Shown piece by piece: positions 10,088 to 13,367 of a stretch of 64,000 nucleotides of DNA. The position numbers and the translations under genes were made by a program. The stretch covers positions 2,170,001 through 2,234,000 of the forward strand of contig NZ_BAFN01000001.1 of assembly GCF_000949635.1 (NCBI RefSeq), written 5' to 3'. The notes under the pieces were generated by a model. The model was not told where the DNA came from and made no database searches. It saw nothing but the letters and a program-made list of their open reading frames with translations. Position 1 is the stretch's first letter. Each line of letters begins with the position of its first letter. Origin of the DNA: Candidatus Brocadia sinica JPN1 (lineage in GTDB: Bacteria; Planctomycetota; Brocadiia; Brocadiales; Brocadiaceae).

Positions 10088-10160
10088 TATAACACAGTGT
10101 GATATTTCTGCAAGGAAAATATTTCACTGAGAAATTGCATCATATAACAGAGTGCTATAC
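10088..10160 (+). promoter_or_regulatory. Two operator-like repeats before the XRE gene
   Basis: TATAACACAGTGTGATAT at 10088-10105 and TATAACAGAGTGCTATAC at 10143-10160 share TATAACA and AGTG at the same spacing, 55 bp apart. The first is an imperfect dyad. The second covers a GTG at 10152, which supports ATG 10170 as the true start. They are candidate autoregulatory sites of the XRE protein; this is inference. Confidence 0.45.
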
Positions 10161-10169
10161 CATATCTTT

Positions 10170-10562
10170 ATGGAGAAAAAGAATGTCGTTGGACATAATA
10201 TAAGGAAATTTAGATTAAAGGCCGGAATTACCCAGGAAGAACTTGCCCTGACGAGCGGGCTATCACAGGGTTATATAAACCAACTGGAGAGTGGCAAGAG
10301 AAACTATACGCAAAAGTCATTGGAGCTTATTGCAAACGCCTTATCAATGCCAATAATCGAGTTCTTCAGAGATGAAAATGAAGAGATTCCGGTTGTTTCA
10401 GAAAAGGAAGTCAGTTACCGAAAGAAAGGGCCATACAAAAAAGACTTTATCCAAATTTTGAATGATTTGCCGGAATACATCGTTGAACACTATCTTACCC
10501 TTTTGAAATTAGAAAAGGAATTACAAACGAAGAACAAAGGAAATATCTACAAAAACAGATAA
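10170..10562 (+). CDS. XRE/Cro-family helix-turn-helix regulator
   Basis: 130 aa from ATG 10170. Residues about 8-62 are a HTH_3 domain (KFRLKAGITQEELALTSGLS, then QGYINQLESGKRNYTQKSLE). The C-terminal part (about 70-130) is charged with no recognised domain. No good ribosome site is visible for either this ATG or the GTG at 10152. The stop ends only 7 nt before the left end of the IS66-like element, so any gene formerly downstream, such as a toxin or co-regulated partner, has been displaced. Its target is probably its own promoter. Confidence 0.8.
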   Translation: MEKKNVVGHNIRKFRLKAGITQEELALTSGLSQGYINQLESGKRNYTQKSLELIANALSMPIIEFFRDENEEIPVVSEKEVSYRKKGPYKKDFIQILNDLPEYIVEHYLTLLKLEKELQTKNKGNIYKNR

Positions 10563-10569
10563 AATATTC

Positions 10570-10638
10570 GTAACACTTTAGTTCTTTGAAAAATTAACAA
10601 GCGATTTTATAGGCCAACCCAGAAGGCGTTTTTACCGT
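10570..10638. repeat. Terminal inverted repeat, left end of the IS66-like element
   Basis: 69 bp identical to the reverse complement of 12914-12982. It contains the last 15 codons and the stop of tnpC (stop at 10594), so the transposase C-terminus is coded inside the end repeat. Confidence 0.9.
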
Positions 10639-11964
10639 CAGGGCGTTTTTGGCAATTGCCAGAAGGTTTTCAACGGGATTAGCACCTTGTAATTCCGCAG
10701 AGCGAAGCAATGTCATAAGGATAGCCTGGGTATTCGCACCTTGAGCAGAACGATTTTGTTGTGAGACCTTTCGAGTCAATACCGGCTTTCGCATCTGTTG
10801 CTCAGCATGGTTATTATAGGGACTCACGCCCTCATGTTCCAGGAACGTAAAGAGTTCCTCTTTATGGCGATTCAGACGTTTGATCAGTCTTTGTGCGTCT
10901 TTATCCTGATAGGGTGTTATCAAAAACTGTTCAAGCCGATAATGTAATCTCTTTTTCAACCGAAGAAAGCATTCTGGACTCAAATGGTTCTTTTCCTCCG
11001 ATAACCGCAATGCGTCTTTGAGCACACGAGAGAGTTTTTTCCGGAAAGCTTTCCATGGAATTGACCGATTGTATGTGTCGACTTTTACCAGTTCCGTGAA
11101 CAGATGATAGAAACACCGCTGCTTTGCCAGTGCGTTTATCTTGTTATAAGCGCCCCAGAAGTCACAAATCAGGATGCCCTTGAATAGTCTGCCTAAGAAC
11201 TTTTCTATGACAGGCGATCCCCGATTGCGTGTTATGAGGTAGTAGCAGAGGGTTTTGGTTGTAAAACACCACAACCAATGGGTTTTCCCGTTCAACCGCC
11301 ACCCTGTTTCATCTGCGTGTAAAACGGCACTTGCGGAGACTTTTTGTCCAATATCGTTATACCGTGATTCCAGGAGTGTTGCAAGGGACTTCCAAGCCTG
11401 GGTTAAACCACCGGCGCTTATGTGAAAGTTGAAAAATACGGAAACCATCTTTACGATATTGTTTATACTTATGCCGACTAAGTAATGAAGCCAGGCGGTA
11501 AAGACAACGAGGCGCAATCCGAGTCGGGCATTTGGCAACGCGTCTGTGACCGTAGGCTGGACAATCTTTCTACAACAAGAACACCAGGAACCATGAACCG
11601 TATGTTCAGTCACGACCGGATCAATCTGTGGGATATCTTCGATGTATCGCTTATACGTTCTTACCGGATTTTGCAGTGGCTGGTGGCAATCAGGACAACT
11701 CTTGAGGGTATGTGTCTGATAGGCAGTTATTTTTTCCGGCCGTTTCCGGGAAATCCCCTTATGTCCGTGTTTCCTGCCACAAGGCCGTCTTTTCCTTTTG
11801 CCTGCGGGCTTGAGATAAGAGGGTGTCATGCCGGACGGGGTGGTTGGACTCGGTTTATCGCAGAGTCTGTCATAGTTCTCTGCTTTCTCGGCCAGTATCA
11901 GGATGGCCTGAATCGCATCCTCTCTGTCCATCTCTAAAATGGCTATGGCTTCATCCCTGGTCAT
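10594..11964 (-). CDS. IS66 family transposase (TnpC type)
   Basis: 456 aa from ATG 11964, chosen because TCCGGAGGT lies 9 nt upstream; the frame stays open further but that part is the antisense of the DUF4338 gene. A zinc-binding region (CPDCHQPL ... CSCCRK, residues 90-131) is followed by a DDE core: D218 in HADETGW, D268 in CDFWGAYN and E388 in NNHAEQQMRKP, the IS66 triad. It catalyses DNA strand transfer of the element. The start overlaps the end of the DUF4338 gene by 14 bp, so translation is coupled. All catalytic residues are present, so it may be active. Confidence 0.92.
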   Translation of the reverse strand: MTRDEAIAILEMDREDAIQAILILAEKAENYDRLCDKPSPTTPSGMTPSYLKPAGKRKRRPCGRKHGHKGISRKRPEKITAYQTHTLKSCPDCHQPLQNPVRTYKRYIEDIPQIDPVVTEHTVHGSWCSCCRKIVQPTVTDALPNARLGLRLVVFTAWLHYLVGISINNIVKMVSVFFNFHISAGGLTQAWKSLATLLESRYNDIGQKVSASAVLHADETGWRLNGKTHWLWCFTTKTLCYYLITRNRGSPVIEKFLGRLFKGILICDFWGAYNKINALAKQRCFYHLFTELVKVDTYNRSIPWKAFRKKLSRVLKDALRLSEEKNHLSPECFLRLKKRLHYRLEQFLITPYQDKDAQRLIKRLNRHKEELFTFLEHEGVSPYNNHAEQQMRKPVLTRKVSQQNRSAQGANTQAILMTLLRSAELQGANPVENLLAIAKNALTVKTPSGLAYKIAC

Positions 11965-12832
11965 GAGCAAGAAACCTCCGGAAGTTTCTCTCAAGAGGAT
12001 AGAGGTAGAGTTCCTTAGGCTGTCCATGATACTGATAGCGATTGCCCCGTTTTGCATTCCCTTGGGTTTTCCCAACACGAATCCAATTGGCTGCCTGGTA
12101 GCAGGTGCCTTGAAACCGTGCGGTATCAACAAAGGTTTCAGCCAAATACACGGGATGGCCATAGACGGATTTCCAGTCATGTGACAAACGCCTCAGGGCG
12201 AGGGATAATACCTTGGATGCAAGGTGTTTGATCATAACCCAGGGTGGAATGAGAAATCGCACGTTACTTGCAATCAAATGCAAGTGTGTCCGTTTGGTAG
12301 ACTCATCCCATCCGATGAAACGATCACGGTCTTTGACCTTCCATGCGGCACTTGCCCATCCAAGACAGGCAACGACCTGGTTGCCGATATGTACGATGTG
12401 CCTGATGTGTTCGCCAACAAGCCGGGGACATCCGAGGTAGTGGTAATGATAAAGGAGATAACCCCAGAGGTACCTCTCTTGATGATCTCTTACCACCTGG
12501 ATCGTCGGGGTTTCATACTCGGTGATGGCACCTTCCAGTGTTCTTTTGACGAAAAGGGGTATCTGATCAAAGACCTTAGGTTTGAGATTGTTTTTTGGCC
12601 GTATGCGTGGCGGAAGCGAAACCAATCCCTGCTCTTCCAATCTCAGAAGGAGGTCTCGTGCTGCGTATTCTTTCAACTTGCCATTGGGCTGCATCCAGTT
12701 CCAACTCTTGCAGAGTTCACGGGAAATATAACTTCGCCCTCTGAGAAAATGACGCTCAGTGAGAGCCTTGATAAAGGCTATATCGTCTGCATGCAGTTCT
12801 CGTGAACGGTAGTGGAATAGGATAGGCTTCAT
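11951..12832 (-). CDS. DUF4338 (DruA-like) protein carried by the IS element
   Basis: 293 aa. The N-terminal part 'SRELCKSWNWMQPNGKLKEY' and 'ARDLLLRLEEQGLVSLPP' and the core 'GWASAAWKVKDRDRFIGW', 'HLHLIASNVRFLIPPWV', 'HLASKVLSLALRRLSHDW' and 'ETFVDTARFQGTCYQAANWI' follow the DUF4338 pattern throughout. DUF4338 is the family of DruA in Druantia anti-phage systems, and also occurs in mobile elements. AAAGGA precedes ATG 12832 by about 8 nt. It shares an apparent operon with tnpC inside the same inverted repeats, so a role in transposition (target or end binding) is more likely here than defence. Family firm, role inferred. Confidence 0.88.
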   Translation of the reverse strand: MKPILFHYRSRELHADDIAFIKALTERHFLRGRSYISRELCKSWNWMQPNGKLKEYAARDLLLRLEEQGLVSLPPRIRPKNNLKPKVFDQIPLFVKRTLEGAITEYETPTIQVVRDHQERYLWGYLLYHYHYLGCPRLVGEHIRHIVHIGNQVVACLGWASAAWKVKDRDRFIGWDESTKRTHLHLIASNVRFLIPPWVMIKHLASKVLSLALRRLSHDWKSVYGHPVYLAETFVDTARFQGTCYQAANWIRVGKTQGNAKRGNRYQYHGQPKELYLYPLERNFRRFLAHDQG

Positions 12833-12913
12833 AATCAGATTCCTTTTCTCTGAAGCCCTTTATACCATAAATGGCAAACTGACGTCAGCGTTTTTTTGCG
12901 TTTTAACGCTCTT

Positions 12914-12982
12914 ACGGTAAAAACGCCTTCTGGGTTGGCCTATAAAATCGCTTGTTAATTTTTCAAAGAACTAAAGTGTTAC
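12914..12982. repeat. Terminal inverted repeat, right end of the IS66-like element
   Basis: 69 bp, exact reverse complement of 10570-10638. It therefore carries an inverted copy of the transposase C-terminal codons (TPSGLAYKIAC and stop). The similarity decays immediately inside the element. Confidence 0.9.
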
Positions 12983-13367
12983 GCATTTTCTTATCATTGC
13001 TGCATTTCCACAAAGAACAACAAAAATCATTCGATAGCATGCAAACACAAGCGTTGTCACTATTTTTGCCGTATATTACAAACTGTAAGCGATATATAAC
13101 AGCTTCAAAATCTTTTTTCAAGGACAAAATCCGATGGTCACATCTTGTCTCCGGCTTCGAAAAATTGTCAGATTTCATTCATCCGGGTAGTCCAAATTCA
13201 GCAATACGCTGAGATTTGCCTTGAGGACGCGGTATAAAGGATTTATAGTTACAAAAAGATATGAAATCTTTAGTATAATTTAATCTGCAAACAAGGCGAA
13301 GTCTTATTGCAGGATTTAGGTGTTGTAGGATTTTCATTATTTATTCGAATTCGATGTTGTGGGACGG
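12983..13367. other. 385-bp spacer, no gene recognised
   Basis: Between the IS right end and the MBL-fold gene. Open frames here have no family resemblance. AT-rich promoter-like sequence (AGTATAATTT near 13271-13280) precedes the lipoprotein gene. Confidence 0.4.

Follow-up and report, generated by a model that had tools for sequence, protein, structure and literature searches.

A Mom-like GNAT protein of the DruA family as a candidate partner of DDE transposases in an IS66-type element and other bacterial transposons

Background

Canonical insertion sequences of the IS66 family carry the genes tnpA and tnpB in addition to tnpC, which encodes the DDE transposase. A subgroup of the family, which we take to be the ISBst12-like one, possesses TnpC only, and combines it with ends of the GTAA...TTAC type and target duplications of 8 bp. 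The DruA family of proteins (PF14236, DUF4338) belongs to another chapter of prokaryotic biology, as it is currently filed as a phage-defense protein of unknown function. A third system of relevance here is Mom of phage Mu, an enzyme encoded in a late phage operon that puts a methylcarbamoyl group on adenine. DUF4338 has already been called a GNAT domain in a form fused to DndF; the passage in question concerns counter-invader systems and draws no link to transposases (PMC10853773). A search of the open-licence literature for papers linking DUF4338 or DruA with a transposase or with IS66 returned none of substance.

The element described here lies within a stretch of 64,000 nucleotides from the genome of Candidatus Brocadia sinica JPN1 (the window, positions 2,170,001 to 2,234,000 of contig NZ_BAFN01000001.1). 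It shares with the TnpC-only subgroup the IS66-type DDE transposase, the GTAA...TTAC ends, the 8-bp target duplications and the absence of tnpA and tnpB, but differs from it in possessing a druA gene that overlaps tnpC and in the 78-bp length of its ends. The absence of tnpA and tnpB, which sets it apart from canonical IS66, bears on its subgroup and not on its membership of the family. Its sister elements include some with the order tnpA-tnpB-druA-tnpC and others with tnpC-druA, and the element itself is a new IS66 variant.

Results and Discussion

Structure of the element and its copies in the genome

The preliminary description of the window had proposed an IS66-like element in which a TnpC with intact DDE residues and a DUF4338 gene overlap by 14 bp inside one pair of ends, and all of these points are borne out (Table 1). 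TnpC is matched above the curated cut-offs by both PF03050 (E 4e-36) and NF033517 (246.7 bits; cut-off 180), and its three acidic residues are found in the expected motifs, HADETGW, CDFWGAY and NNHAEQQMR respectively. The overlap is exactly of the proposed length, and both genes are enclosed by GTAA-type inverted repeats that are 97% identical to each other; extended with flank, these give an 85-nt inverted repeat at 95%. The final codons of tnpC fall within the left repeat. Neither tnpA nor tnpB was found within the element, and TnpB is missing from the whole genome. A small gene for an XRE-type helix-turn-helix protein (window 10152-10562, stop codon at 10560-10562) abuts the left target flank.

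Table 1. Features of the IS66-type element, in window coordinates, and of MITE-like elements with similar ends elsewhere in the genome (G000)
Feature	Coordinates	Strand	Evidence
Whole IS66-type element, 2,413 bp	10570..12982	genes on minus strand	nine full copies, ends, 8-bp target duplications
Left terminal inverted repeat, 78 bp, starts GTAACACTTTAGTTC	10570..10647	.	inverted-repeat and copy comparison
Right terminal inverted repeat, 78 bp	12905..12982	.	inverted-repeat and copy comparison, flank matching
Left 8-bp target flank, AAATATTC	10562..10569	.	partner at copy 2109502-2111914 (reverse complement GAATATTT)
Right 8-bp target flank, GCATTTTC	12983..12990	.	partner is left flank of copy 2115747-2118159
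tnpC, IS66-family DDE transposase, 456 aa	10594..11964	-	PF03050, NF033517; D218, D268, E388
druA (PF14236, DUF4338), transposon-type, 293 aa	11951..12832	-	PF14236 E 1.7e-41; PHROG Mom-like E 2.5e-4
Overlap between the end of druA and the beginning of tnpC, 14 bp, ATGACCAGGGATGA	11951..11964	-	sequence
Conserved N-terminal domain of DruA (residues 1-75), predicted to form a hairpin and three helices, possibly helix-turn-helix	12608..12832	-	model
DruA residues 106-285, predicted Mom-like GNAT domain	11978..12517	-	model; best PDB match 8bv8
Codon for S206 of DruA, the residue that aligns with Mom S124	12215..12217	-	135/135 transposon DruAs
MITE-like element, 141 bp (L223)	G000:C1:326978-327118		8-bp duplication ATTAAATC
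MITE-like element (L050 1521-1596)	C1:832321-832396		
MITE-like element(s) (L103/L104)	C1:172067-172269		

The genome contains nine full-length copies, 98-100% identical and each with both genes, which rules out a chance arrangement; in the copies L007 and L008 druA and tnpC are both open. A tenth copy, L010, is a truncated remnant that retains the tnpC side and lacks DruA. The preliminary description had named, as evidence that would count against it, copies without DUF4338 and DUF4338 genes outside the ends: the former is represented solely by this remnant, and the latter was not encountered in this genome, where all nine DruA matches lie inside full copies.

Perfect 8-bp direct repeats are in place at four copies (CTTTTTTT, GATTATAG, AAAAAACC and CTTATTTT), one further copy has flanks that agree at 7 of 8 positions, and the flanks of the copy at 3936258 are unmatched. 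At the window copy (2180570-2182982) and the copies at 2109502-2111914 and 2115747-2118159 the flanks have been exchanged in a cycle: the right flank of the window copy recurs on the left of the copy at 2115747; the right flank of that copy reappears, as its reverse complement, on the right of the copy at 2109502; and the left flank of the latter, again in reverse complement, is found on the left of the window copy. Matching flanks across copies in this manner recovers three more perfect 8-bp duplications, and the cyclic exchange, within a 73-kb stretch, points to recombination between the copies, with inversions or rearrangement. The window element is an active-looking insertion sequence of the IS66 family built of TnpC and a transposon-type DruA.

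A second full IS66 element of the same genome, about 1.72 kb in length and present in six copies, carries tnpC alone. The genome also contains gene-less MITE-like elements of 76-203 bp, whose ends are much like those of the present element (GTAACAATTTAG.. or GTAACACTTTAG..) and which may be moved in trans.

A relative of the element, with ends of 78 bp and the duplication AAAGAGTC, occurs in G228, a genome from the same family; its DNA is about 87% identical to that of the three copies in G088, another genome from this family. Comparison of the window element with that of G228 yielded dN/dS values of 0.115 for DruA and 0.121 for TnpC, and comparison with G088 yielded 0.159 and 0.152; against the more distant element L319, dN is 0.319 for DruA and TnpC alike. 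The two genes being equal in this respect, DruA is constrained as strongly as the transposase, that is, it is under purifying selection as strong as that on tnpC.

DruA is associated with diverse DDE transposases

A scan of bacterial genomes recovered at least 581 relatives of DruA, the best 80 of which were taken for a study of gene neighborhoods. Among these best 80, 76 have a DDE transposase no more than 700 bp away, belonging to IS66 in 67 cases, to an IS1182-like group in six, and to IS1634, ISKra4 and ISL3 in one case each; two of the four that have no transposase nearby are situated at contig ends. DruA was found in 27 of 294 sampled genomes of the same phylum, often in reading frames of 640-800 aa, in which it is fused to IS4/Tn5-like and IS701 transposases. 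A fusion to the ISAs1 transposase occurs on one plasmid and in several genomes, and one-frame fusions as a whole span these three transposase families. Partners matched above curated cut-offs comprise IS66, IS4 (Tn5-like and another subgroup), IS701, ISAs1, ISKra4, ISL3 (one locus) and IS1634 (two loci), while the IS1182-like match lies below its cut-off. Samples from two further phyla display the same pattern; the samples of Pseudomonadota, of the phylum of genome G294 and of the element's own phylum have fragments and Druantia-type DruAs mixed in, and no pooled percentage is given for them.

DruA was found within target duplications of 8 bp in IS66 elements, 9 bp in an IS4/Tn5 fusion (GTTTACGGG), 10 bp in ISAs1-type elements (CGGTATTTCT, ACATTGAACT and CTATTCCCTG) and 6-7 bp in IS1182-like elements. 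Relatives of the transposon type were not found in phage records, and only two clear plasmid records contain them. Desulfobulbus alkaliphilus and Sporotomaculum syntrophicum are examples of carriers that have been cultured. Judged by this genomic context, transposon-type DruA is a recurrent partner of DDE transposases from at least seven families, and such repeated pairing and fusion suggests that it is a helper of DNA transposition not described so far.

Two peculiarities of the fused forms deserve mention. The DruA-Tn5-like fusion element of genome G206 (L110-L114) is repeatedly found inside inverted repeats of C-runs and G-runs (CCCCC..GGGGG), and may pick hairpin-like or repeated intergenic targets. 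The reading frames of certain ISAs1-type fusions (L208 3863-5624, L326 1372-3202 and, on the minus strand, L327 221-2037) stop in the middle of the transposase domain and resume in another, overlapping frame. This is perhaps frameshifting; when the loci were checked for it, the direction of the frame change was seen to vary between them.

Gain, loss and the relation to tnpA and tnpB

The tree built from 135 DruAs of the transposon type requires 12 changes of partner family, as against 36 in shuffled data, with none of 200 shuffles giving a value as low. Clades of DruA therefore hold their partner, yet several partner swaps have occurred. In a tree of 95 TnpCs, the presence of DruA changes 8 times, and at least 7 of these changes are forced by well supported branches. 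Moreover, tnpA and/or tnpB are also present at 33 of the 67 loci that pair DruA with IS66 in the set of the best 80 (out of at least 581 relatives), and elements with the arrangement tnpA-tnpB-druA-tnpC include L066, L069, L071, L073, L177 and others. A reversed tnpC-druA order is seen in the IS66 elements L156, L176, L178, L181, L183, L186 and L196, which form a cluster both in the tree of DruAs and in that of TnpCs.

The preliminary description had placed DruA in the position of tnpA/tnpB. This is true of the window element, which has neither, in a genome devoid of TnpB, but it fails as a general rule given the share of loci that carry them. We accordingly dropped the notion of DruA as a simple tnpA/tnpB substitute in view of the tnpA-tnpB-druA-tnpC elements, and that of DruA as an obligatory component of its IS66 clade in view of the gains and losses on the TnpC tree. 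Because of these gains and losses, and because an IS66 element with tnpC only has reached six copies in the same genome, IS66 transposition does not strictly require DruA. Rather than a fixed replacement for tnpA/tnpB, DruA is an accessory that complete systems can acquire or lose. The further proposal that DUF4338 is a transposition accessory holds insofar as the gene is coupled to its element, as seen in the copies, the partner families, the clades and the constraint; over evolution it is dispensable.

A gene that comes and goes in this fashion along the TnpC tree could be cargo, namely a passenger of the element that serves anti-restriction or host protection and has no role in transposition. 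Such an idea gains from the presence of DruA relatives in defense systems and from the action of Mom, which, according to PMC6483171, shields Mu DNA from restriction. Yet cargo would hardly be expected to be fused in one frame with transposases of three families, to form partner-specific clades, to have its stop codon overlapping the start codon of tnpC and to be as constrained as tnpC itself, and we consider this explanation improbable.

The fold of DruA and its similarity to Mom of phage Mu

The window DruA is matched by PF14236 (Table 1), and its predicted structure (mean pLDDT 90) consists of an N-terminal three-helix domain followed by a GNAT domain. Foldseek retrieved Mom of phage Mu (8bv8, 'methylcarbamoylase mom') as its top PDB match (E 2.3e-7), and VIA-align likewise (Z 14.9 with an rmsd of 3.6 over 165 residues, the next GNAT scoring 13.0), 8bv8 ranking first in a fold comparison that covered 350,542 chains. 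A sequence search of PDB chains with DruA gave no match, and Mom was reached only by fold and profile comparison. Profile comparison with nine Mom relatives gave E 1.5e-4 over the whole domain (hhalign probability 51%), and the Mom-like PHROG family (PHROG 1384) is matched by 46 of 48 DruAs, the best at 2.4e-7.

The resemblance extends to the active site. DruA S206 aligns with the serine mutated in the inactive Mom variant S124A (S114 in the phage Mu record), and DruA H131, R192, S206, D/E236, Y245 and N249 align with Mom H48, R101, S114, D139, Y149 and N153. Both proteins have the GNAT fold, their serine and their R, D/E, Y, N and H residues occupy corresponding positions, and the spacing G-x2-Y-x3-N-[FW]-x3-G is common to the two. 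H131, R169, S206, E232, Y245, G254 and K273 are present in all 135 transposon DruAs, R192 in 134, N249 in 132 and D/E at position 236 in 130. Unlike Mom, DruA has an extra N-terminal domain and the extra conserved residues R169, E232 and K273, sequence identity between the two is only 15-18%, and DruA is borne by transposons, beside a transposase. On the strength of the modeled fold, the window DruA appears to be a relative of this DNA-modifying enzyme.

The N-terminal three-helix domain is conserved among relatives, and may perhaps bind DNA. Foldseek found nothing below E 0.001 for this domain and the best VIA-align match had a Z of only 5.3 (2x4h), which weakens an assignment as a winged helix.

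These features bear on what DruA does. One alternative is a non-catalytic DNA-binding accessory comparable to TnpA/TnpB, whose Mom-like fold would serve to bind DNA ends or targets, with structural or DNA-contacting roles for the conserved residues. It agrees with the conserved N-terminal domain, with the fusions to transposases and with the place of tnpA/tnpB that DruA occupies in this clade, in a genome without TnpB. However, a binding scaffold would not need the Mom serine together with the R, Y and N, which are invariant or nearly so in diverse DruAs, and half of the DruA-IS66 loci among those best 80 relatives retain tnpA/tnpB as well; we regard this alternative as rather unlikely. Another possibility is that DruA regulates transposition by acetylating its partner transposase or another protein, as would befit a GNAT fold that many other GNATs, protein acetyltransferases among them, match at Z 12-13. 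We deem it very unlikely, as Mom, a DNA enzyme, is the top match by both aligners and the Mom-like family is the only viral one matched by 46 of 48 DruAs.

The reading that we favor, with moderate confidence, is that DruA is a helper coupled to the transposase, has an acyltransferase core like that of Mom and probably modifies DNA at the transposition complex. DruA would be a dedicated partner of the transposase rather than cargo, and would join a small conserved N-terminal domain, perhaps DNA-binding, to a Mom-like GNAT acyltransferase domain. Acting at the transposition complex, it would put an acyl-derived group on DNA at the element ends or the target, and this modification might help the DDE transposase to assemble, to choose a site or to survive host nucleases; end marking, target choice and protection of intermediates are the candidate steps. 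The fusions and the gene overlap argue for action at the transposition complex, the invariance of the Mom-site residues argues for an enzyme, and the relationship to Mom argues for DNA rather than protein as the substrate.

Relation to the DruA of Druantia

Seven Druantia-type DruAs, of the full-length type of about 375-430 aa, share with transposon DruA the Pfam family and the overall fold region. They differ in matching the Pfam model over its full length and in having G at the serine position (LLGGK), a TTTSAxGRSSxYNR segment where the transposon type has ETFVD..RF.GTCY.AANW, and neighbors such as an MZB-domain protein, a HerA-like ATPase and a TniQ protein. In one such locus (L287 1330-3617, minus strand) the Druantia-type DruA adjoins a TniQ gene (PF06527 E 6e-30), TniQ being a target-selection protein of Tn7-like transposons. 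The window DruA lacks the Druantia-type signature, differing at the serine position and in the Y.AANW motif. It has no PADLOC or NCBIfam match; neither it nor TnpC matches the PADLOC models, including those for Druantia, and a search for a DruE-type helicase (MZB/DUF1998) found no MZB match genome-wide and none in the reading frames near druA. The suggestion that the element may hint at how DruA acts in defense is hence a weak one, because neither the serine nor the ETFVD..Y.AANW motif is present in these seven DruAs of the Druantia type, and properties of transposon DruA need not apply to Druantia.

Conclusions

In the sampled genomes, DruA most often resides next to DDE transposases or as a part of them, these belonging to many families that are unrelated to each other, and it keeps the key Mom serine. 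DruA matches alone are hence poor evidence for a Druantia system. A wider proposition, which we put forward only tentatively, is that a Mom-type DNA-modifying enzyme, separate or transposase-fused, is a component of widespread bacterial transposons, that DDE transposition in at least seven IS families includes a step in which bases of the ends or the target are chemically modified, and that the DruA of Druantia is a diverged relative. A Mom-like module common to unrelated DDE transposases would surprise specialists, and the fused and two-gene forms offer small systems for direct testing of the role of DruA. If DNA modification does belong to transposition, it would represent a new step in a very well studied DNA reaction, and a candidate tool.
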